Source: a virus. Taken from it: a stretch of DNA of 40,714 nt. The notes beneath the pieces are model-generated. The model was not told the DNA's origin and did no database searches. It worked only from the letters and a program-made list of their open reading frames with translations. Positions 1 to 40,714 of the stretch are shown here, one piece after another. The stretch is from the IMG/VR virus record IMGVR_UViG_3300048588_000134, positions 1-40,714 of that record; one strand, 5' to 3'. The position numbers and the translations under genes were made by a program. The first letter of the stretch is position 1, and every line of letters begins with the position of its first letter.

Positions 1-1964
1 CCTTTACCTAATAATTTTTCTGCTCCATCCTCGTCGATCATAACCCGTGAGTCTACACCCTTGGACATTCTAAACACGACTTTTACCGGAAAGTTTGTTT
101 TGACGTCCCCATCAATTACCTTGGTGCTTGCTCTTTGAGTAGCGATAATCAAGTGTATACCGCACGCACGGCCTTTTTGGGCCAATAATTTGATATTGTT
201 GTCGACTTTTTCTCTAAACTTAAGATCGGCATACTCGTCAATCACTACAAATTTATAGGTCATTGTAGTCTCCGAAATGTTCTTAACCTTTAGTTTCTTC
301 ATCTGCGAATATCTTTGCTCCATCAAGGCTACTAGATTTTCCAAAGAGGCCGCAATACCGTCGTGGCTATGCTTGTACTCCTCGACACTTTCCTCGTACT
401 GGTTTAATTCAACCTGTTTTGGATCGAATAAATGAAGATCTACATTCCTAATATCAAGCAATTGTTTGATTAAAGAATGAAGAAAAACAGACTTACCAGA
501 GCCAGAACTACCAGCAACTAGGATATGCGGAGCCTCACGAACGTCAAAGGTTCTGACTCCCTGCATAGACTGGCCGATAATAAGATTAAAGGTTTTATCG
601 TGTTCTGGGAGCGCTGGAAACACACGGTCCTTTTTAGGTATCTCAAAACCTACCATATTTGTATTCGCAATAGGCGCTAGGATGCGAATACCGCTCACAC
701 CCGTTACTTGTTCCACATCATCCACGAAATTGCGAACCTTGCTCATTTTTACGCCAATAGAGGGATTGTAGCGGTATAGATCAACCGATGAACCCTCAAC
801 TTTGGAGTCAAACTGGAGCATAATACCAAATTCCAGCAATTTAGTTTGTATTTTTTCTTCTGTTTTCATCTTTTCGTAATCAATTTTTTTAGCAGACACA
901 AATTTTTCTTCGACGGCTTTCAATAGCTTGCGCATATTGCCAGCACTTTGTATCTCCTTTTTTAATAAATCGGTCAGAGTATCCACCTTGTGCTTTTTCA
1001 TCAGCTTGGCAGTGTCCTCTTGAACATCCAAGTGATGGATATAGGATACGATGGCCACTTCATTGTCAAAAATGGCGTGGACGTTTGGAAAGTACACCAT
1101 CTCACCGTTTAAGGCTCGGATTGTGTCCTCGTAAAAGCGGAAATAAAAGTCAAAGTACAAATCATTTTCAGCGAATATCATCTCGTAAGTCTTTACCTGT
1201 GGCCCACCGTCCTTGTTTTTAGTTCTCTTGATCTCCTCGAAAACACAAGAGTAAGGCTCCTCTCCAAATTTAGCGTATGCCAGTAAATAATACTCGACGG
1301 CCGCCAAGATCTTTGCTCCATCAATTTTATCCGGATCAGAGAAAGTGGAGACTAGCTTGTAATCGACAATCTTTAGTTTTCCGTCCTCCCGATCTATTCG
1401 GTCGATATATCCCTTAAGTTTAATTGGCAAGGTAAGTCTTTTACCTCTCCATTCTACGTCAATTTTCTCGATAATTTTATCTTCCGTACAGACCACAACA
1501 TCCGGTCTATATGGTTTTTCCTTGACGTAAGAATTGAAAGCGAAAGCAAACACTTCCTGCGCCTTTTGCTTGTTTTCTATTGTTTTGGAATACTCGATAA
1601 AACCATCATTGTGCTGGGCCAAAAACTCCATCCCTGTTTTCAATCCGTATTGAATAGCCTCTGACTCGCTTGTGATCGCTACATCGTCACTACCCCCGTA
1701 ATAAACCTCCATTGCTTTGTGGAAAGCCCTACCAAGGATAGACGAGATACCGCTTGTCGTTTCGATCACATCCCGATTGACGTATTTTATTTTGAACAAG
1801 ATCGGATTTGTCGACAAAGAGACCATTGAGCTAGCCGATAGGTGTTCTACCGGAAAATCACTAGGATTGTCTGTCGTCTTTTGGCCACTCTGGACTTTCC
1901 ATACCTTGGGAAGTATCAGTTTGGTTTTTATCTTCTTTGGTTTCTTTAGCTTTTTTGTTTTCAT
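1..1964 (-). CDS. PD-(D/E)XK nuclease fused to FtsK/SpoIIIE-type DNA translocase (partial here; complete across the circle junction)
   Basis: The frame is open from 1964 down to position 1 and, on the circularised genome, ends at a TAG at 40527-40529, giving about 674 residues. The N-terminal half has a RecB/Cas4-like nuclease pattern: LSASS near residue 40, GRAFHKAME with H82, GYIDRID with D188 and IVDYK with D201 and K203. After a helical linker comes an FtsK motor: PHILVAG followed by Walker A GSSGSGKS (485-492), Walker B VVIDEYAD (D576, E577), then KGRACGIHLIIATQRAS, and GAEKLLGKGD near the C-terminus. No FtsK gamma (DNA-reading) domain and no membrane segments are visible. I infer a single-chain end-resection or DNA-processing machine working with the RecT encoded just upstream. 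The start is uncertain: ATG 1964 overlaps recT by 101 bases without a good ribosome site, and the next ATG (1826) would cut into the conserved N-terminal motif. Confidence 0.85.
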   Translation of the reverse strand, partial: MKTKKLKKPKKIKTKLILPKVWKVQSGQKTTDNPSDFPVEHLSASSMVSLSTNPILFKIKYVNRDVIETTSGISSILGRAFHKAMEVYYGGSDDVAITSESEAIQYGLKTGMEFLAQHNDGFIEYSKTIENKQKAQEVFAFAFNSYVKEKPYRPDVVVCTEDKIIEKIDVEWRGKRLTLPIKLKGYIDRIDREDGKLKIVDYKLVSTFSDPDKIDGAKILAAVEYYLLAYAKFGEEPYSCVFEEIKRTKNKDGGPQVKTYEMIFAENDLYFDFYFRFYEDTIRALNGEMVYFPNVHAIFDNEVAIVSYIHHLDVQEDTAKLMKKHKVDTLTDLLKKEIQSAGNMRKLLKAVEEKFVSAKKIDYEKMKTEEKIQTKLLEFGIMLQFDSKVEGSSVDLYRYNPSIGVKMSKVRNFVDDVEQVTGVSGIRILAPIANTNMVGFEIPKKDRVFPALPEHDKTFNLIIGQSMQGVRTFDVREAPHILVAGSSGSGKSVFLHSLIKQLLDIRNVDLHLFDPKQVELNQYEESVEEYKHSHDGIAASLENLVALMEQRYSQMKKLKVKNISETTMTYKFVVIDEYADLKFREKVDNNIKLLAQKGRACGIHLIIATQRASTKVIDGDVKTNFPVKVVFRMSKGVDSRVMIDEDGAEKLLGK

Positions 1965-2745
1965 CTGGCGATTTGATTAAATTACCCATTGTTAAAGAGC
2001 TTGTTTCCTCCTTGGCAGGCTCCAGCCTGTCGGAGATTATGCTATCAGCATTATCAATTGCGAGGGCCTTATTAATGATCTCGTTTTTAGGCAAGAATTT
2101 TTGCTGTTGTTTTAGCACGGTCTTTTTCCACATATTCAATTCTGGATCGTTTGCGGAGTTCCAAGGTGAGAATTTTCCAGTAAGATCAAAAGACTTTGAA
2201 AACTTTTTGGCGTGATCCAAGATGTCTTTAGCGTTCATATACTTCACGTTATCGACACCTCTAAAAGTCACACGGACGTAAGCACCGATCGGTTCTCCAC
2301 GTTCCGAGCTAGATTTGGTTAGATCTATTTCGTGTCTCAATTCTCCATTGATAAAGCTAGTTTTGTCTCCCTTTCGGACGATGTCTGATGTAATTCTCTC
2401 AATACCGGCTTGGTAGAAAAGAGTCACAAAGCCTTGATAACCAATTTGCAATTGAGCAAGCATTGTCCCCTTGATTGAATAGGGGATGACGTATGCCTCG
2501 CCCGATATTTGGGACGGCATAAATCCGAGCTGGGCCATTGTCATATAAGAATTGACCAAAGACTCTCTCGTACATTCGAGCAGTTTTGGGTTTCTTTGTA
2601 TGTCGGCCACAATTGAACTGATGAACTTACCGGCTTTTTTGTCGTCGCCGAGAAAGTTTGTGATTTGTTTCTTGTAGACCGTATTAAGATCTAGGCCAAA
2701 TCTCTGTAAAGGTGATAGCGCTAGTGTCTTGTTTTGTTCTGACAT
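1861..2745 (-). CDS. recT: RecT-family single-strand annealing protein
   Basis: At 294 residues this has the usual RecT size and sequence character: FISSIVADIQRNPKL near the N-terminus, then SLVNSYMTMAQLGFMPSQ, EAYVIPY, AQLQIGYQGFVTLFYQAG and the PIGAYVRVTF strand. The C-terminal 60 residues are charged and lysine-rich, a typical disordered tail. RecT proteins coat single-stranded DNA and anneal it to complementary strands during phage recombination and replication. The gene sits directly upstream of, and overlaps, the nuclease-FtsK gene, the position normally held by a RecE-type exonuclease partner, which supports a shared job. Confidence 0.93.
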   Translation of the reverse strand: MSEQNKTLALSPLQRFGLDLNTVYKKQITNFLGDDKKAGKFISSIVADIQRNPKLLECTRESLVNSYMTMAQLGFMPSQISGEAYVIPYSIKGTMLAQLQIGYQGFVTLFYQAGIERITSDIVRKGDKTSFINGELRHEIDLTKSSSERGEPIGAYVRVTFRGVDNVKYMNAKDILDHAKKFSKSFDLTGKFSPWNSANDPELNMWKKTVLKQQQKFLPKNEIINKALAIDNADSIISDRLEPAKEETSSLTMGNLIKSPDENKKAKETKEDKNQTDTSQGMESPEWPKDDRQS

Positions 2746-2812: not shown

Positions 2813-2965
2813 TTATTTTTGGCCATTCTTTTGGGCCTTGCGATAGTTTTTCCATCTCTTGGCTACCATTTTTTTGTAATGATCCGGTCCGTACTTTTTA
2901 AAAGTGGCCGCACCACCAAGTTTTGAAAGCTGTTTTTGAGTGATTATTTTCTTTTTCATCTTCAT
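2813..2965 (-). CDS. Small basic protein with LGG-x-AT-x-KKYG motif
   Basis: A 50-residue ORF, very rich in lysine, with the pattern LSKLGGAATFKKYGPDHYKKM followed by a KRWK segment. This resembles a family of tiny basic proteins, often annotated as KGG or stress-induced-like, in which a GG-x-AT-x-KYG core is followed by an RW. The function is not established; nucleic-acid binding is plausible from charge. It is the first gene after the leftward early promoter at 2998-3027, and recT follows. There is no clear Shine-Dalgarno before ATG 2965; a second ATG lies two codons later. Confidence 0.6.
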   Translation of the reverse strand: MKMKKKIITQKQLSKLGGAATFKKYGPDHYKKMVAKRWKNYRKAQKNGQK

Positions 2966-3090: not shown

Positions 3091-3456
3091 ATGCTAGTTT
3101 CCGAATATTTAAAAACAAATCCACGACAAGATCGAAAATCAAAATATGGAAATTTAAAAACCGAGTATGACGGTTACGTTTATATGAGCAAAAAAGAGGC
3201 AAACTACGCCCAGCAATTGGACTACTTAAAAAAAGCAAAGGATCCTAGAGACAAAGTGATTAGTTTTGAAAGGCAAGTACCTTTTCAAATTATTTTAAAC
3301 GGTGTAAAAATATGTAAATATATGGCTGATTTTAAGGTTATTTTTGGGGATGGCCATATTGAAATAATAGACGTAAAAGGCGTTCGGACTCAAACCTATA
3401 GACTGAAAAAAAAGTTAGTGGAGGCTCAATACGGAATTGTGATAAAAGAAGTATAA
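3091..3456 (+). CDS. DUF1064-like phage nuclease (PD-(D/E)XK fold)
   Basis: This 121-residue protein has the DUF1064 layout: an N-terminal KYGNLKTEYDGYVYMSKKEA region, then a core with CKYMADFKV, HIEIIDVKG (the D-x-K catalytic pair) and TYRLKKKLVEAQYGI. Members of this family are small phage endonucleases, thought to resemble Holliday-junction resolvases. It is the only convincing rightward gene, transcribed divergently from the recT operon out of a shared control region, so a role in resolving recombination or replication intermediates is likely. The message is probably leaderless. Confidence 0.85.
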   Translation: MLVSEYLKTNPRQDRKSKYGNLKTEYDGYVYMSKKEANYAQQLDYLKKAKDPRDKVISFERQVPFQIILNGVKICKYMADFKVIFGDGHIEIIDVKGVRTQTYRLKKKLVEAQYGIVIKEV

Positions 3457-5565: not shown

Positions 5566-8500
5566 TAGACTTTTCAACCTATATAATAATTCCGGTGTTA
5601 CGATCTGATCTTCAACAAGACCCTGCTTAAACTTCTTAAATTCCTCGGCCGTCATATCTTCTTCAATGGCCTTAAGAACCTCTAGCTTTTGATTGTTTGA
5701 AGTGGCACTTATGATTACAGACACCCTAGGATCGTCATTTAGGCCTCTCTTTAGCGATCTTTTAAACTTTGTGACTAGGTTATCGGCATAGATCTTTTCC
5801 TCCTCATTTTCGGGCAATTTACCGCCCAAAGCCTCCATAACTAGATCTTTCCTATATTTTGATACTGCGAATATGGTGGCTTTATCCTCACGAGCTTGTT
5901 TGACGTATTTAGCGATTAGCTCCCTGTCTTTTAGAGTCTGTTTTGCGCCCTCCTGTTTTGCCTCTTGTGAGATTTCATTTAATTGCTCTTGCTGTCCGTA
6001 ATTAGAAACTTTGAATAAGCTAGAGAACCAAGGAGTCACCTGCAAAGCTGTTTCCAAGCCGGTATTTTTTGAAGTATCGTATGTCGCAAATTTGGTAAAG
6101 CCTAGATTGTTTGTAGTCCACTGGGCCATTTTCTTAAGTGATGCACCTCCGCCAGCCAAGAAAGTAGTATCGTCAATCACGTTTCTTCCTCGGAAATTAT
6201 CGTAAGGATTTTTTCCAGACAAATATTGTTCCCAAGCAATCGCAAGACTGATTGCCGGCGTGACTGACGGTAATTGTCCGGCACCTAGAGCAAAGATATC
6301 TTGCAAGTCTTTTGTGTCTCCACCATCCTTAATTGAGTTTGCCATCTTCCAGAAAGCGGAAGAAAGTAGACGACCAGTTTCATCGTGTGGAATACGCATA
6401 TAGACGGCCTTATCGTTATAGTAACCAAGTGGAATGATCAAGTAGTTTGTTTTGTCATACTCGGAAACATTATCGTAAAAGTCTTTTAATACGGTTCCGG
6501 CGGCACCAGCGCTGGCCAAGAACATCAAAAGTTTTGGCAAAAGATCCATTTTGACAGTCTTATACCAGTACCCAGATCGTGTATTTGGATCCGTCGCAAT
6601 TCGGTAATCTGATTTTAGACCCTCTTTCATAATGTTAGAAAACACGAAAATAGCGTTTGTAGTTTGAGTCTGTAGACCTTTGACTTTATAGTTTGGTGTA
6701 CCAGTGAAGTTTCTCAAATTATAAGCGAGTCCTTTTCCACTTTCACCACCAGCAATACGCACTTTGGCACCAGCGATTTTAGACACAATTTCAAAAGTAT
6801 TTGCTACAAAGCGGATACCCTCTAGCACTTGGGCCACTGGTTTTAATAAAGTCTTTCTGACGGCCTCGGCCACTGCACCCGTATATGGCTCGTCTTTTTT
6901 AATCAAGCCGTACCTTTCCATTATTCGGCCCAGCTCATCTTCTCTTGGGTCGAAGTTGTAATCATTGACTGGAGCGTTTATGGCCTTGCTTTCTACCAGC
7001 GAACGAGTAAATTCATCAAGCTCGCCCTTGGCATATTTGATTGATTGAGGGAGGCTACTTGCGTAAGCCTTTAGCAAATTTCCAACGGTGGCACTAGGGA
7101 TAATTTTATAATTTCTTTTGAAGTCTCTGATCGGGTTAAAAGCGGCCGCAAATCCTAGGTTGTAAGTAGTGACGACCGGCTTAAATAATTTATTGTTAAA
7201 CTTGTCTAGCAAAGAGACTAGGATATTTGTGTTGCCGATTGGATCGTAAGTAAAGCTCTCGGCTATGTATGGGTCCACGTCGTAACTGTCCATTTTACCG
7301 TCTACCAAAACTTCGATTGAGCCTTTGCCTCTAGCTGGTTTGAATACAGAAAGACGGCCATCGGTGGTGATCCTTTTGGTCTTTGATATATCCTCTGGAA
7401 AATTCTCGGTTAATAACTTGATGGTACCGTTTTTAGCACGTTGGTAAGCGTTTAAACGGTTCAAGGCGACGGTCTTGAGTATGGTACTGATAAAAGGGTT
7501 AGCCACTTCTTTCAAGGTACCGACTTGGCCCTTTACGGTTGCTGGGATGTAGTCCTGCATATAATCAACAACTTGGAATGAGGCATAAGTATCTTTGTTT
7601 GGTTTGATTTTTGTCTCAAATAATTCTTTATTGTAGCTACCAACAGCCACCGCCTCCTCGACGGATTTAAATACTAGATCGTGGAAATACTGGGCCTTTT
7701 CTTTCAAAAGCTCAAAGTTTTGCTCGCCAACATTTTGTCTCAAAAACTCTAATTGTTTTCCGGCATTTTCTTTATTAAAGCCAAATGGATTAGCGATATC
7801 AGCACGATCATTTTGTATACGATTAAGCAAAAGATATTCTCCAAGATCGTCGATGATCATTCCGGCATCTTCGATAGGTTTGACGACGTTTCGATCTATA
7901 TCTTCGACAAGCAAAAAGTTTTCGTTATCAATATATGATTGTTCCTGTAATAAATATTTAGGACTATTTTCATCAGAAAACACCACACCTTTTGCCTCCG
8001 CCTCTCTTTGTTTTTTCAAGATAGGGTAGTAAACATCATCTAATTGCTGGCGCAATCGTTCCCACAATGCCTTTTTATTTAAGTCTTTTTTATTGACAAA
8101 ATCTGCTTGGATTGCTTCGGCTTTAGCAAAACCAGTTCGGATATCCTCCTTTCTAGCACTAAATAACTGCTCGCTTGTACCGTTCAAGAGTTCTTGTAAT
8201 TCAAAGTAGCTAGCCTTTACTTCCGGCTTAAGATCCAAGGCTCCAAAAAATTCACGATAAAAGTTAGGTGCCATTTCCTCCAACATTCCGGGGGAGTTAA
8301 ATAGCATTGAGATCGCATCGGCATATAGTTCGTTTGGTTTGTTACGATATTTTAGATAGGTCGGGCTAGAATTTACTTTGTCGTAAGGTCTCCAGTATTC
8401 TGAAACCCTAGAAAGCTCCGCCTTTATTGTAGAGTCTTTGATTGCCCCAGTCTCGTCAACAAGTTCGTTATATCTATTTTTTATATCTTCTTTCAAACTT

Positions 8501-11500
8501 TCCCGTATTGATTTTGTCGTAATATAATCACCGTATTTTATTCCTTTCTCGGCTAGAATTTGTTTAAGGGCGTCATTTCTTAGTTTGGATAGATCAATAT
8601 TTTCTCCTGTACCTTTATTGAAAGTAGAGGACATAAATTTGCGCAAGCTAAATATTCTTCCAAGGAGGTTACCCCTTTTCATTGTTTTGTCTGGCAACCA
8701 GTCAACCAAGTGACCTATTTCGTGGGCCAAAAGTTTTGATAATTGTGCCTCATTTCCTTGCTTAAACTGATCAGCTCTTAAATAGATTTGACCCTCGGCT
8801 GGTTTAAAGTAACCGAGTTTGTCTCTCATTTTTTCTCTGATCTTTGGAGCGGCGCCAGTCAATTCTCGTGCGAGTCTGACTAATTCCGGCATCTCGATCG
8901 GCCTTATTTTATCCAAGGATCCAAGTTTGATCGGAGTACCATCACGGAATACACCAATGTCAGCATTATCAGCGCCACCAGTGTAAGCCAGTAGCTCATC
9001 AGTTTTTTCAGCTATTTTTTCGTATTCGCTGTAGAGTTTTTCGAGTTCTTCGTCTGTATAGCTTTCTCCTCTCTCAATGCTTTCAGCAACGATATCGCTA
9101 ACTTCTTCTTTGGGTGTTTTTTCATATTGTTTTAAAATGTTATTTCTGATTTCGCTCGTATCAATACCAAGCTCCAAATCAAGATTGTCTAATAATAAAT
9201 TATAAAATTCTCTTTGGGCTGGACGATTTCCCTCTGGGAATTTAATTGTATCAATGCTAGAAAAGTTTGGCATAATCTTTTCAAACAATTCTTTTGATCT
9301 ATATTCTTCCGGCATCCACTTTGGAAAAGTAGAGGCTACACCAGTGACTTCACGGTCAGCGCCGTATCCTTTCATTAAGCGATAACCAGCCTCGGAAAGA
9401 TCCATCTGAAGATAGATTTTTGATATTGCCTCCTCCGCCTTGTCTCCAAGGTTTTCATACTCTGATTTTAAGACAGCCGTTAGCTTTTCTATTTCCTCCT
9501 TATCTACTGGCTTTGCCTCTGGCCTTTTCTTTTTCGTTTCTACTTTTGGTCTATAAATATATTCTTCACCAAGTGGTTCGGTTTTATCATCCAAAACTTC
9601 TGACAACTTGACCTCTTTTTCTAATATCTTTCCGGTACCGGCATAATCCTTAGCCAATTGTTTGTTTGTTGTGACAAAATCTCCAGCGACAATTTCTTTT
9701 TGATTTTTATCAGCCCCTCTGTATATTTTTATAAGCTCGTTCGGTTGCTTGCCTAGTGTCTTGTCTAGTGTTGTTATGTTTGGACCAAGACTAGCTTTCG
9801 CTCTTTGATCTGGTCTATATTCCTCCATAATTCCCCTTTTTGATGGATTGACGGTGCTGATTACTTCTTTTTTTTGTGTATTTTGTTTTATTCCAGCACT
9901 CAACAACTCTGCATCCGTCGCTAATCTTATTTGATTTGCATAAAAGATATGATCCTGTTTATCGTTAAGCCCTTTAATTCTTAGATAACCAATATTGTCT
10001 CCAGACTTTTCACTATTACCGGATGTAACAATAGAAAGATTGCCGTCTCTATCAACGACATAATCACCAGTATTTACAACTAATTCAGTATCACTTAATT
10101 CTGCTGGTTCAAGGTTTTTTAAACTATTATCAATTTTTACTTTCTTGCCACTTAAACCATTCAAAATACTTTCGATAGCAGTGGCATCTTCCTCGGTACC
10201 ACTTCTCTTTTGCACGTCCTTGGCCCAATTTTCTACCTCTCTTTTGGCCTCGGCAATTGCTTGTTTCTCGGTAGCATAAAGTTTGCTCTGATTAAAATCA
10301 GTATTAAGACCGTGACTCGGCGTGCTTGCTGTTATCTTTACGGCAAATTTGCCATCGCTATATTCGATTGTATCAATTTTTGCTAGTGTCGAGTTATCAT
10401 CTCCTTTTATAAAAACGGCAGTGTCGCTCGCTACATTGTGGTACTGCTCTAGCGCCGACTGTAATTCTCCAAGCTGTGCTTGGTATTTTTGGACCTCAAT
10501 AGGATTAGCTTTGACTCCCTTACTTTGTTTTAAAAGAGTTTCAATCTCGGTTCTTAATTCTGATGATGTCATCTCTGACGCTTTTTTAGTGGCCTCTGGC
10601 GCTGATGCTGGAGTCACTACGTTTTGTGGGCCGTTGTCCTTTACATTGAAAGGAATTTTTTTGTCTTTGACTACCTTTCCCTCTATCCAAGACTTCAAAT
10701 TTTCGTACAAGCTCGGTTTGGTCTGAAATGCCTCTATATCGAGTTTTGTTAGTGTAGCTGGGTTACTTGCGCCAACCGCCCTCTCACTGGCCGTAATGCT
10801 TGATTTTGGCACAAATTGGACCCCATTAGCCGTGACTTTGAGTAATTGTGAGTCATCTTTAGGATTTTTGAACCAAAGAGTCTTTGATACCTGTGATTGA
10901 TTGACTGCCGGATCATTTAGGGCCTTACTCAAATTTGGTGTGACTTCCATCTTTCCAACACTAGCAATGATCGGTTTAAAGAAAGTAAAAATAGGATAGG
11001 CAAAAGCTGTAAAGCCAGCAAATAGGCCAGCCGTCTCAATAACATTTTCAGCCACACTTTTTTTATTGTTCTGTATTAAACCGAATAATCCACCGGTACC
11101 AGCGCTTTTTAAAATTTCAGCTCCGTATCCGACAGTCCAAGGGCTTACGATGCTTTTTGTCTTTATAGCATTAAGCAAATTAGTACCCCCCGGAATTTTA
11201 GTTATTAAGTTTACCGCACCAGCCTCAATAAGTGGCTGGGCTACAGTCATTGTCACCACGTTACCAATTGCCTCGGCGATCTTTTGTTGTTTAGTTGCTG
11301 GATCTGGTAGATCTTCAAGTGACAAACCAGTTTCTTGGCCGGTTATAAAGTCTTTAGTTTTTTGGTATATGTCTAAATCGTTTCCAAAAGATAGCCCCCG
11401 ACGAAAATACTCCATAGGATCAACCTTTTCTGGATTTTCTTGCATCAATTTTTTAGTAACCAAATTTCCTTGGTATGTAACAAAGTCGGCGCCGGATAAT

Positions 11501-32814: not shown

Positions 32815-34317
32815 TTAATTATATGGATCTAATTCGATTGGTTGGTTTGGAACTGGACGAGTATAAGGAACAAAACTGATCTCGTTAAAAAGCGCTCTAC
32901 CTAAATTTTCAATTTGGTGATCATCTTTGTCGACGGGTTTCTCTTTGGCGTTATGATTATCAGCCCCAACACCTGTATATTCTTGCCAGCGATAGTGTTC
33001 AAACTCAAATATGGTTCTCTTACAGGTACTAAAAACGTACACCTCCGGCGCTTTCATCATATATCCCTTGATTTCAACATAGGAAAGGGCTGTTTCAATG
33101 CGCCGATCGGCCAAAGCTCTTGATTTTGTGGCCTCTTGATAGCTTAAACCTTGATCGGCAAGCCTACTAGCAAGACTTTTACCATCCCTATCGTGCTGAT
33201 TTTGGATAAAGGCTGACGGATCGGCCATTCTCCTAATAATCCGGTACTGGCTAGCTTTGTTTTTAATCTTACCAGCCAAGTCCTCATCACTTGCGACCTT
33301 AATAAACAGTTCATCGCAAACATATTTTGTCCCGTTCTTGTCCACTGCTACCCACATAACGGCATCTGGATTTCTAGGGTGTGGATCTAGGAATTCATAT
33401 ACTGAAAAATTACGATTATCAATGTTGAAAGGCTCGATAACGTGTACTTTTGGCGAGAAAGACTTGAATACCAAGCCAACAAGGTGCTGGAATTTACCAT
33501 AAATACGGGCCTGCTTTTCATCTTCCGAATACTCGGCAATCATATTTTCAATATCTTGGTGCCTTAAGTGTCCTCTAACGCCGTGTTCACGACAAGCGGA
33601 CTCAATATCCGCCTCGATATAAGCAACCTTTCTTTGAAATTTAGTCATCGCCCCATTCTCTTGGGACTTGATCTCTACCTCATAATTACCCTTAGCAAAG
33701 GAGTCGTACATATACGCTGATCCAGCCAATGGAGTAGCACCAATGAAGATAATACCTCCACGTCTTAAACGAGACACACAAGCCTTGAAAATAGCCTCTG
33801 GTGGTGGCTCATCAAACCAAATCCAGCCCAAGGTGATAGACTCAAATTCTTTTATGTCCTGCTCATAGGTCATAATGTCAAAGCTCCAGCCGGTATCTGT
33901 TTGCCATTGGCTTTCAAATTTCTTATTACCCTTTCTCGTAACATATCTACCAGCAGGGAACCAGTCTTTAAGCTCTGGAATAATGTTTTTCTCCACGTTT
34001 GTCGGGGATGAAACAATACGTCCTCGTTTTAAATAGGGAAAGTCTTTGAATAGCTTACCTTGAAAATAGGGGTTATCATCCGTTGGCCAAAATTGATGCG
34101 CTAGTACGTTTGTACACGTCGCTGTTTTACCCACACCGTTGGCGGCAGAATACAAGACAATAAAGTTCTCACCACTAGCATAGGCATTAATAAACTCCTC
34201 ACCTTTTCCAGATGGCTCGTAATACCTATATTTTTCTTGGGCCAAGCGTCTAGCCTCCTCCTCCTTAGCTATTCGTAGTTCTTCAAGAAGTTCTGTTTGA
34301 TTTACCTTTTTTGCCAT
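32815..34317 (-). CDS. terL: Terminase large subunit
   Basis: A 500-residue protein with an ATPase domain: Walker [10 protein letters not shown] (57-65), Walker B WIWFDEPP (about 165-172) and coupling motif IGATPL (about 192-197). The C-terminal RNase H-like nuclease carries acidic positions in [22 protein letters not shown] and [13 protein letters not shown]. It packages and cuts phage DNA into proheads through the portal. The HNH gene follows immediately and a 120-residue gene overlaps its start by 35 bases. This confirms that packaging does not depend on the separate FtsK-type motor. Confidence 0.9.
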
Positions 34318-34645: not shown

Positions 34646-34724
34646 ATTTTGAATTAATTACTAAAATGATAATAAAAATAAAGAAAATCATAAAAGCCCC
34701 AACACCCAGAATATTCTCTTTCAT
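34638..34724 (-). CDS. 28-residue single-span membrane peptide
   Basis: A tiny ORF whose ATG overlaps the deformylase stop as ATGA, a classic coupling arrangement, and whose end overlaps the following gene. Residues about 7-23 are strongly hydrophobic (VGAFMIFFIFIIILVIN). The exact overlaps argue that it is real; its function is unknown. Confidence 0.45.
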   Translation of the reverse strand: MKENILGVGAFMIFFIFIIILVINSKYD

Positions 34725-35461
34725 CGTTTGTAGTGGATATTAATAGCTTTAGCGTGATCACACTCGTGTTGGAAAATGTGAGATTTCAAACCCTCGACCC
34801 ATTCTTTATGCGTCACCAAGATGCCAAAAATGCCCTTGGTTTGATATTTAACCTTAATTCGATAGAAACGCTTAGTAGTCTTACTTGTACGGTTAGGAAA
34901 GCTCATACAAGCGTCTGGGACGTCAATCATATTCGATACTAGCTTTCGTTCGTGTACAATCTTGGACCCGACCTTGCCATCTATCTTGGTAAGCTCTCTC
35001 TTTGGTACATTGGCCTCAATCTTTTCTGGTGCCTCTAATATCTCGGCATTAAAGATTGCTTGCTTAGGAAACCAGAAGTTTTTATTGTTTTGTTTTCTCG
35101 TCTGTTTGATCTTCAAAGAATTAACCAGCTCTTTGGCCACCACGAACAAACGGCTTGGATCATCACAAATCTGACAATGTGAGATAGCATAAGCGGTAAC
35201 ATAGGGCTTTTCAAAGTGTCCGTTGTTGTTATTTAACCAGTTTATGATGCGATCAGCCTCTTTTATCACTGGATCAAACCATTTTACAGGCCTAGAAACG
35301 GCGTATATGCCCTTTCCCGACTTGTGGTCGTGCTTGGTATTGATAGAAAAGTCCTTATTTGAACCGGGAATATAAATTGGGGACATCCCAGCATTTAAAG
35401 TATTCTCGATAACTTGATTGCGTAAAGTATCTATTGCTTTTTGTTTTGACGATATATCCAT
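34721..35461 (-). CDS. Peptide-deformylase-like enzyme, active site retained
   Basis: This 246-residue protein carries all three deformylase motifs in order. AISHCQI (Q97) aligns with the GLAAPQ motif, DACMSFP (C185) with EGCLS, and HECDH (232-236) is the metal-binding helix. C185, H232 and H236 would bind the metal and E233 would be catalytic. About 85 N-terminal residues and insertions around 115-135 exceed the usual 170-residue enzyme. Deformylases remove the N-formyl group from nascent proteins; viral versions are known in marine phages. Here it sits between terminase genes and is translationally coupled to a membrane peptide, which suggests maturation of late proteins. Substrate specificity is unproven. 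Confidence 0.75.
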   Translation of the reverse strand: MDISSKQKAIDTLRNQVIENTLNAGMSPIYIPGSNKDFSINTKHDHKSGKGIYAVSRPVKWFDPVIKEADRIINWLNNNNGHFEKPYVTAYAISHCQICDDPSRLFVVAKELVNSLKIKQTRKQNNKNFWFPKQAIFNAEILEAPEKIEANVPKRELTKIDGKVGSKIVHERKLVSNMIDVPDACMSFPNRTSKTTKRFYRIKVKYQTKGIFGILVTHKEWVEGLKSHIFQHECDHAKAINIHYKR

Positions 35462-39452: not shown

Positions 39453-39780
39453 TTCCTTTTAGTTGTTTAACTCCGCTTGATAAACTCGCATTTGTATTTC
39501 TAATTGACTCAAACAAGTCTTGTAATGGCGGTATCCCAGCCTTGATCTTAGCCTCTCTCTCATCTCCCTCAAGGTATCTTATATCATCAAGAAACTTCCC
39601 CCTCCTTTGAACATCCTCGACGACAACCGACATCGTATTTGGATTTTGAACAAACGCTTGCTTAAGGAATATACTACTCCCATTCTTTGTAGCCTCGGCA
39701 ATCTTAATTATTTCTTCTTCCTCAATTTTGACCTCGACGCCAGAAGTCAGAACTAACTTAAAACATTTTGGTATTCTCAT
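39442..39780 (-). CDS. Early protein of unknown function
   Basis: The product is 112 residues, with a beta-type start (KCFKLVLTSGVEVKIEEEEI) and a helical C-terminal part (PPLQDLFESIRNTNASLS). No domain was assigned. The start codon overlaps the stop of the replisome-organiser-like gene, so it is co-translated with it. Confidence 0.5.
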   Translation of the reverse strand: MRIPKCFKLVLTSGVEVKIEEEEIIKIAEATKNGSSIFLKQAFVQNPNTMSVVVEDVQRRGKFLDDIRYLEGDEREAKIKAGIPPLQDLFESIRNTNASLSSGVKQLKGNGK

Positions 39781-40523
39781 AAAATTATATCTCTACCCTT
39801 ATTAATTACTGGTCCTTTCGACTTAGACCACTCTTTTTTGTTTCTAAACCAAGTCCTCAATCTCTTATCCACCTCGAAAGTCTTTTGCAATTGCCATCGC
39901 TCATACTTTCCGGCCGGATCCTTTTCTTGCCAATAGTCCCCAAAAGCCACTATTTCGTCCCAAAAGGCTTTTTTCCTAACTATGCTATCTATGCCATATT
40001 CGGACGAAACGCTTTGTAAGAACTCCCCCATCTTCTTGGACTCCTCACTACTTACCTTGGTGATAAAATCTGTAATTCCCTTGAAAAAGAAAACGGCTTT
40101 GTCCTTTGGCCTATCTTCTTTATTATCATTATTATCATTATTGTTTGTGTCCGCTTGTTGTCTTTTTGTTGTTCGCTTGCTGTCCGCTTTGTTGTCCGAA
40201 TTTTGATACTTTTCCCAATTTAGTATTGTAATTAGACGGTATTTTGTTGTCTTTTGTTGTCCGATTTGGTGTTCGATTTCTAGGTATTTTAACACCCTCT
40301 CGACTAAACTTGGTGAGACTCCACATTTCTTGGCCAATTCATCTCTACCAGTAAGCAATTGCCCTCTTTTTACTGTAATCTTTCTGTCGTTCCAAATGAA
40401 GTCATTATCGTTGTGGTTAGCCATTAAAAGTAAATGGACCCACACGGAAAACCAAGCTGGACGTGAGCTTATTGCATTTTCTAATATCCGCCTATGTAAG
40501 CTGATCCATCCAGAGTTTTCCAT
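39777..40523 (-). CDS. Replisome-organiser-like replication initiation protein
   Basis: This 248-residue protein begins SGWISLHRRILENAISSRPA and continues VHLLLMANHNDNDFIW, VKRGQLLTGRDELAKKCGVS, the winged-helix N-terminal pattern of phage replisome organisers (DnaD-like family). A polar, asparagine-rich linker (about 115-140) follows, then a C-terminal domain (KAFWDEIVAFGDYWQEKDP). No helicase, primase or polymerase is encoded, so this protein would recruit host replication proteins. Its own coding DNA contains the iteron-like repeats, as in other phages where the initiator gene carries the origin. It starts four bases after the nuclease-FtsK stop. Confidence 0.8.
   Translation of the reverse strand: MENSGWISLHRRILENAISSRPAWFSVWVHLLLMANHNDNDFIWNDRKITVKRGQLLTGRDELAKKCGVSPSLVERVLKYLEIEHQIGQQKTTKYRLITILNWEKYQNSDNKADSKRTTKRQQADTNNNDNNDNKEDRPKDKAVFFFKGITDFITKVSSEESKKMGEFLQSVSSEYGIDSIVRKKAFWDEIVAFGDYWQEKDPAGKYERWQLQKTFEVDKRLRTWFRNKKEWSKSKGPVINKGRDIIL
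40126..40278. repeat. Iteron-like repeats with adjacent AT-rich stretch (putative replication origin)
   Basis: Six direct copies of a 9-base word TGTYCGMTT, one with a mismatch, start at 40148, 40170, 40181, 40193, 40258 and 40270. Spacings are 22, 11, 12, 65 and 12 bases, close to whole helical turns. An AT-only-like stretch of TTATTATCA units lies directly beside them (about 40120-40145). The arrangement fits binding sites for the initiator encoded by the same gene. Confidence 0.5.
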
Positions 40524-40526
40524 AGT

Positions 40527-40714
40527 CTATAGTGGATTATATGCTTGAAGTCTGTCGATACCCCAATCTCCACTAAAGAGACAGTCCCCTTTACCTAATA
40601 ATTTTTCTGCTCCATCCTCGTCGATCATAACCCGTGAGTCTACACCCTTGGACATTCTAAACACGACTTTTACCGGAAAGTTTGTTTTGACGTCCCCATC
40701 AATTACCTTGGTGC
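40527..40714 (-). CDS. C-terminal end of the nuclease-FtsK gene (continuation across the junction)
   Basis: This stretch encodes the last 62 residues of the fusion protein, ending GDWGIDRLQAYNPL and a TAG at 40527. Bases 40588-40714 duplicate positions 1-127, so this is the same gene as the one entering the window at position 1. Together they make one uninterrupted frame. Confidence 0.85.
   Translation of the reverse strand, partial: TKVIDGDVKTNFPVKVVFRMSKGVDSRVMIDEDGAEKLLGKGDCLFSGDWGIDRLQAYNPL
40588..40714. repeat. 127-base exact copy of the window start (circular overlap)
   Basis: Bases 40588-40714 are identical to 1-127. The length equals a common assembler k-mer and the repeat lies within a coding sequence that becomes continuous when merged, so it marks circular assembly and not necessarily a physical terminal repeat. 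Confidence 0.9.

Follow-up and report, generated by a model that had tools for sequence, protein, structure and literature searches.

A phage family of single-chain nuclease-FtsK fusions encoded beside recT: probable motor-driven partners of single-strand annealing proteins

The locus and its genomic context

The window analyzed here is the whole 40,714-nucleotide IMG/VR virus record IMGVR_UViG_3300048588_000134. At its left edge, on the minus strand, lie a gene that joins a PD-(D/E)XK nuclease to an FtsK-type motor and, upstream of it, a recT gene (Table 1). Within the window, the frame of the fusion, 3-1964, encodes 654 amino acids without any stop codon. The ends of the window form an exact 127-bp terminal repeat, with positions 40588-40714 copying positions 1-127, and the closed circle of 40,587 bp looks like a complete circular virus contig. 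On this circle, the open reading frame starts at 1964, runs off position 1, continues through the repeat and ends with a stop at 40527, for a total of 674 amino acids. Closing the circle thus yields a full-length fusion without a frameshift, the apparent truncation being merely the contig edge. The single uninterrupted frame claimed in the initial annotation, which had been made from the sequence alone, is therefore real, and a stop or frameshift between the two halves was sought and found neither in the window nor in the relatives described below. The same annotation placed the fusion directly after recT: the two genes are indeed adjacent, but rather than simply following one another they overlap, the 3' end of recT and the beginning of the fusion sharing 104 nucleotides that are read in different frames.

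Table 1. Features of the fusion locus and of the related genes in the window (positions in the 40,714-nucleotide record; aa, residues of the encoded protein)
Feature	Position	Strand	Evidence or remark
Nuclease-FtsK fusion gene, residues 1-654	1..1964	-	open frame, Pfam; leaves the contig at its edge
FtsK beta (RecA-type ATPase) domain, from aa 444	1..635	-	Pfam, alignment, mapping to P. aeruginosa FtsK
FtsK alpha domain, aa 359-443	636..890	-	Pfam FtsK_alpha
Flexible helical linker, aa 311-358	891..1034	-	low pLDDT at 311-319 and 329-359
PD-(D/E)XK nuclease domain (RecB/Dna2/MGME1-like), aa 41-310	1035..1844	-	Pfam, invariant residues, Foldseek
Lys-rich N-terminal tail, aa 1-40, net charge +9, IKTKLILPKV	1845..1964	-	typical of one family sub-clade
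recT (single-strand annealing protein)	1861..2745	-	PF03837 E 7.9e-31; TIGR00616 4.7e-32
RecT tail motif LTMGNL, aa 251-256	1978..1995	-	seen solely in fusion-paired RecTs among 65 loci
Small KGG-like basic ORF, 50 aa, upstream of recT	2813..2965	-	similar ORFs in relatives
DUF1064 / Holliday-junction-resolvase-type gene, divergent from recT	3091..3456	+	PF06356 6e-17; phrog_190 5.6e-33
Large terminase subunit, separate packaging motor	32815..34317	-	phrog_5653 1.2e-9
DnaD-like helicase loader / phage replisome organiser, immediately downstream of the fusion gene	39777..40523	-	phrog_2514 8e-35; PF09681 weak
Fusion gene 3' end across the circular join	40527..40714	-	stop codon 40527-40529; self-match

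The terminase, portal, capsid and tail genes are located away from the fusion and recT. The conventional terminase noted earlier is accompanied by a portal protein, and the fusion itself is not the phage terminase, terminase and portal being encoded separately. Elsewhere in the window (34721-35461), a gene encodes a protein whose C-terminal part gives a peptide-deformylase-like match (Pfam 9.7e-8). Among the other loci collected in this work (designated by L numbers), KGG-like basic open reading frames lie near recombination genes in L004 (4297-4545), L005 (13356-13577), L006 (13285-13497) and L017 (5797-6051), and the 32-kb phage contig L004, which bears a fusion, also encodes groES- and groEL-like proteins (7045-8918).

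Domain architecture and catalytic residues

Pfam profiles partition the fusion protein into PDDEXK_1 (residues 41-251, E 1.2e-12), FtsK_alpha (359-443, E 3.6e-13) and FtsK_SpoIIIE (from about residue 470, E 6.4e-25). No match to the FtsK gamma domain was obtained, in agreement with the initial annotation, and the protein terminates with the beta domain; the membrane domain is absent as well, the N-terminus being occupied by the nuclease. Lacking both the N-terminal membrane and the C-terminal gamma domains, the fusion is not a bona fide cellular FtsK/SpoIIIE. The HerA profile (DUF87) gave a weak match to the fusion, below the cut-off, and the NurA profile none; the fusion, whose motor has an FtsK alpha domain, is not a HerA-NurA system. 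phrog_2666 matched weakly, within the ATPase region.

The residues that had been read from the sequence (H82, D188, D201 and K203 of the nuclease, Walker A, Walker B and the GRACGIHLIIATQR signature of the motor) were all recovered. The complete nuclease set of the window copy is H82, E161, D188, D201 and K203; the motor carries Walker A at about K491, Walker B at D576-E577, an arginine finger at R599 and the DNA-loop residues R611 and K622. The arginine-finger and DNA-loop assignments follow Pseudomonas aeruginosa FtsK, for which Jean et al. (PMC7321959) identified the arginine finger R620 and the loop II residues R632 and K643; in our alignment, R620 corresponds to R599, and R632/K643 to R611/K622. 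The basic residues of loop I are not strictly retained in the fusion, with a lysine displaced by one position and the R661 position sometimes non-basic.

In an alignment of 33 rows (the window copy and 32 other intact fusions), the nuclease residues are invariant (H73, E148, D175, D188 and K190 in L008), as are the Walker A GKS, the DPKxxE motif, the Walker B catalytic glutamate and the arginine finger of the motor; the Walker B aspartate and the DNA-loop arginine and lysine are nearly so. The glutamine of the RecB-type QxxxY motif is replaced by A221 in the window copy and retained in all 14 relatives aligned with it. No cysteine is conserved among 15 aligned members, two of which have none at all, so there is no sign of an Fe-S cluster of the AddB/Cas4 type. 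By its FtsK_alpha and FtsK_SpoIIIE matches, Walker motifs and arginine finger, the motor half is an FtsK alpha-beta translocase; by its H...D...DxK signature within a PD-(D/E)XK fold, the nuclease half is of the RecB type.

The mean pLDDT of the AlphaFold2 models, which were predicted as monomers, is 75.7 (window protein) and 85.1 (L008). Foldseek matched the motor half to DNA-bound FtsK alpha-beta structures (6t8o, 6t8b and 2iut; TMt up to 0.73); for the nuclease half, the matches were Dna2 and MGME1, which confirms at the level of predicted structure the PD-(D/E)XK fold proposed for this half; HerA-DUF4297 structures were also among the matches. The pTM is about 0.5 and confidence in the linker is low, so that the model does not fix the position of the nuclease relative to the motor. 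Given that FtsK translocates DNA from beta to alpha (PMC7321959) and that the nuclease is attached to the N-terminus of alpha, the nuclease would sit at the DNA exit.

A widespread family with a single apparent origin

Relatives were gathered by iterated IMG/VR searches, the first rounds of which yielded one relative at 58% identity, then full-length relatives at about 30%, and then many more. Besides the window copy, IMG/VR contigs provided 32 intact fusions, and a Patescibacteria metagenome-assembled genome (MAG) contig provided one more; further fusions are cut by contig ends or were obtained through the RecT search described below. A close member, L007, is 67% identical to the window fusion and retains the QxxxY glutamine. 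The fusion beside recT is thus a widespread family and not a single oddity. Full-length relatives at 67% to about 30% identity keep the architecture, the catalytic residues and the position, which places the fusion pattern far above chance; chance, frameshift or assembly artefact as a source of the fusion is ruled out by the 33-row alignment.

Three fusions require an altered genetic code. In L022 and L042, in-frame TGA codons fall at invariant glycines, among them that of Walker A, which indicates that TGA encodes glycine (code 25); in L214, TGA occupies a conserved tryptophan position of RecT and apparently encodes tryptophan.

Among 264 records containing the motor half in 50,697 annotated phage genomes, none has a fused nuclease. 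A scan of genome contigs with the full fusion alignment, whose patterns sat in the ATPase, retrieved ordinary FtsK proteins, which were reused as a control set. The motor-domain tree included as comparators FtsKs of Patescibacteria (27) and of other bacteria (20) as well as unfused FtsKs of phages (21), from all of which the fused proteins are separated by one branch (SH-aLRT 93); by this tree, the fusion arose once. No split ancestor, that is, separate nuclease and FtsK genes together with recT, was detected, none of the unfused phage FtsKs having recT within 8 kb. A weak nuclease match about 5 kb from an unfused phage FtsK was seen in seven loci, and BFVD matches include single phages in which FtsK and nuclease are separate entries.

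Patescibacteria as probable hosts

Standalone homologues of the nuclease half are encoded in the chromosomes of Patescibacteria (E 1e-54 to 6e-66), and searches of three other phyla (249, 249 and 247 genomes) recovered no close relatives of this half. The standalone proteins at L167, L168 and L169 are 275-300 amino acids long and have no adjoining FtsK or recT; L223-L226 are additional chromosomal homologues of this kind in Patescibacteria. On the 6.4-kb MAG contig, which looks like a putative provirus, iscS- and iscU-like genes precede recT and a fusion that shares 75% identity with L008. Together, the nuclease homologues, this contig and code 25 point to Patescibacteria as hosts and suggest that they harbor at least part of the fusion-carrying phages.

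Linkage to annealases and exchange with YqaJ

An annealase (Pfam RecT) is encoded no more than three genes upstream of the fusion in all 37 loci with upstream sequence, although the match at L192 is weak and below the Pfam cut-off. The possibility that the relatives are always encoded far from recombination genes, which would have undermined the proposed pairing, is contradicted by this linkage. RecT was found within about 8 kb of an unfused phage or cellular FtsK in none of 142 control loci, searched with a RecT profile that had been derived from the fusion loci and that remote annealases could escape, and none of these loci encodes a fused nuclease. The annealase and fusion genes overlap by 62-131 nucleotides in 24 of 29 measured loci, in a constant relative frame. 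By BLAST, the annealases of the family fall into six groups, and the 34 typed fusions require six group changes along the tree, so that the pairing persists despite changes of partner. With an annealase gene adjoining a nuclease gene, the locus has the arrangement of a Red/RecET-type module.

A reciprocal search from RecT provided 65 loci with enough downstream sequence, in 22 of which the downstream slot holds the fusion and in 43 of which it does not. The fusion-free RecTs nearest to the family, L269 and L271, share 75% and 68% identity with the RecT of L008, and in both the slot of the fusion is occupied by a YqaJ/lambda-exo-type exonuclease (Pfam 3.6e-19 and 1.8e-17), with one small gene intervening between RecT and YqaJ in L271. 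YqaJ is among the commonest neighbors of recT in Firmicutes phages (PMC8093625). The replacement of the fusion by YqaJ beside close RecT relatives makes a recombination role of the fusion more likely, and this displacement at the same locus is the strongest functional evidence of our analysis. At L269 (3965-5595) and L271 (2018-3932), the C-terminal segment of RecT differs from that of the fusion-linked RecTs; the RecT tail thus seems to have been exchanged together with the nuclease partner.

A motif in the RecT tail

Shortly before the overlap, the RecT tail contains the motif Lx(M/L)GNL in 18 of the 22 loci with the fusion, compared with none of the 43 without it. The motif is borne by the annealase tails of the window, L007-L014, L200-L220 and L227, and is also present in an unlike annealase type (L013, L209 and L218) without a BLAST link to the others at 1e-15. 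The motif is encoded by differing synonymous codons, and its distance from the start codon of the fusion gene varies by 7-52 nucleotides, except at one locus where the called fusion start precedes the motif. This variation in codons and spacing indicates that the motif is probably a peptide signal and disfavors an RNA element. In the sub-clade that bears the motif, the fusion has a lysine-rich N-terminal tail with a net charge of +4 to +12; the other sub-clade has neither the RecT motif nor the fusion tail. It is possible, judging from this pattern, that the RecT tail is a nuclease-docking peptide for the fusion.

Proposed function and alternatives

Annealase linkage, replacement by YqaJ and the pairing-specific RecT motif all argue for a joint function with RecT, and the resolvase and replisome-organiser genes that flank the fusion support a role in recombination. 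We consider it likely that the fusion is the nuclease partner of RecT in a Red/RecET-like module and contributes its own motor, performing an ATP-driven end resection that supplies RecT with single-stranded DNA. FtsK alpha-beta rings, probably hexamers, would load onto double-stranded DNA, perhaps at its ends, and drive it in through beta and out on the side of alpha, where the RecB-type nuclease domains would digest the emerging end or strand. The remaining single strand would be the loading substrate for RecT, which in the motif-bearing sub-clade would probably be tethered through its C-terminal LxMGNL tail. Within this scheme, the hexamer, the ATP-driven resection, the strand polarity and the docking are the parts that we infer. 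Points against it are the behavior of HerA-NurA, its closest mechanistic analogue, which cut both strands in vitro and left no 3' tails (PMC12977600), the alanine at the QxxxY glutamine position of the window copy, and the absence of both the RecT motif and the N-terminal fusion tail from one sub-clade.

The principal alternative is that the motor-nuclease fully degrades host or competing phage DNA and occupies its early-operon position by convenience. HerA-NurA cuts both strands in vitro and leaves no 3' tails (PMC12977600), HerA-group ATPase-nuclease pairs serve defense (PMC11291478) and HerA-nuclease complexes act against phages; HerA-DUF4297 is among the structural matches of the fusion, and the fusion has its FtsK module in common with PADLOC SspH. 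Nevertheless, the annealase linkage in all 37 loci, the presence of YqaJ at the same locus, the motif specific to RecT-fusion pairs and the position of the fusion within a phage replication and recombination operon make wholesale degradation unlikely. Even less probable is a pump for DNA partitioning, concatemer resolution or assistance of packaging, with the nuclease trimming or resolving DNA and the link to RecT being secondary: FtsK-type ATPases do pump DNA, and large phages commonly encode unfused FtsK-like proteins, but those lack a recT context, and the fusion is distant from the head genes and adjoins recT and a replisome gene. A packaging role in particular is disfavored by the phage's own terminase and portal. 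That the nuclease half of the window copy is degenerate or structural, the motor acting alone, is very improbable: the loss of the QxxxY glutamine would fit this reading, but all five catalytic residues are intact and L007 retains the glutamine.

Beyond the likely partnership with RecT, we are inclined, with less assurance, to regard these loci as a distinct phage recombination system centered on Patescibacteria phages, in which an annealase would recruit, through an exchangeable C-terminal docking motif, a single-chain, self-assembling pump-nuclease with six motors and six nucleases per ring.

Relationship to known systems and implications

The closest relatives of the motor are FtsK and SpoIIIE (P. 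aeruginosa and E. coli; 2iut, 2ius and 6t8b/g/o), which share with the fusion the alpha and beta domains, the Walker motifs, the arginine finger and the loop II residues, at 33-35% identity in the structure-based match; the fusion differs in having no membrane domain, FtsK linker or gamma domain, in the nuclease at its N-terminus and in the basic residues of loop I. HerA-NurA of archaea and Deinococcus likewise combines a ring translocase of the FtsK-HerA superfamily with a nuclease and has been proposed to resect ends. However, it consists of separate chains at 6:2, with a HAS-barrel HerA and a NurA-family nuclease, whereas the fusion, with its FtsK-type motor and RecB-type nuclease in one chain, would have a 6:6 stoichiometry if hexameric. 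The initial annotation correctly treated HerA and NurA as separate chains but confined them to archaea; they are also present in bacteria (PMC9960219). RecBCD, AddAB, AdnAB and Dna2 follow the same principle of nuclease plus motor with a RecB-family PD-(D/E)XK domain, which MGME1 also has, Dna2 and MGME1 being closest in fold to the nuclease of the fusion; their motors are SF1 helicases on single-stranded DNA (MGME1 has none), in contrast to a double-stranded DNA pump without Fe-S cysteines.

Lambda Red (Exo-Beta), RecET and RecT-YqaJ share the order of an annealase gene followed by a nuclease gene, in a slot interchangeable with YqaJ, but their usual nucleases are small exonucleases without a motor domain. 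Unfused phage FtsK-like proteins (Minerva gp199 and those of Bacillus phages) belong to the same motor family but, in the annotated phages examined, have neither a fused nuclease nor recT nearby. In mycobacteriophage Minerva (L231), a gene for a Ku-like end-binding protein is located three genes away from the unfused FtsK-like gene, a hint that phage FtsKs participate in DNA-end metabolism. The BFVD entry A0A8S5RDL0 (virus sp. ctkyY8, 400 amino acids, named PD-(D/E)XK nuclease) may be a fragment or a member of the fusion family. The literature that we searched contains no description of a nuclease-FtsK fusion or of a RecT-FtsK pair, although Iyer et al. 2004, on the FtsK-HerA superfamily, may mention one earlier. 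The components and the motor-plus-nuclease principle are already known; the single-chain fusion of FtsK and a RecB-type nuclease as a phage annealase partner is apparently new.

Phage annealases underlie recombineering, and their nuclease partners are regarded as small exonucleases without a motor. If the proposed function is correct, the partner would contain a double-stranded DNA motor and thus be a compact, one-gene phage counterpart of RecBCD or HerA-NurA. The interest of the fusion lies in a widespread family, a sharp linkage and testable predictions: the co-varying RecT tail motif makes the choice of nuclease by the annealase directly accessible to experiment. The fusion and its RecT are a candidate processive nuclease-annealase pair for use as a tool, and they would represent a recombination module for the phages of Patescibacteria, where genetic tools are scarce.
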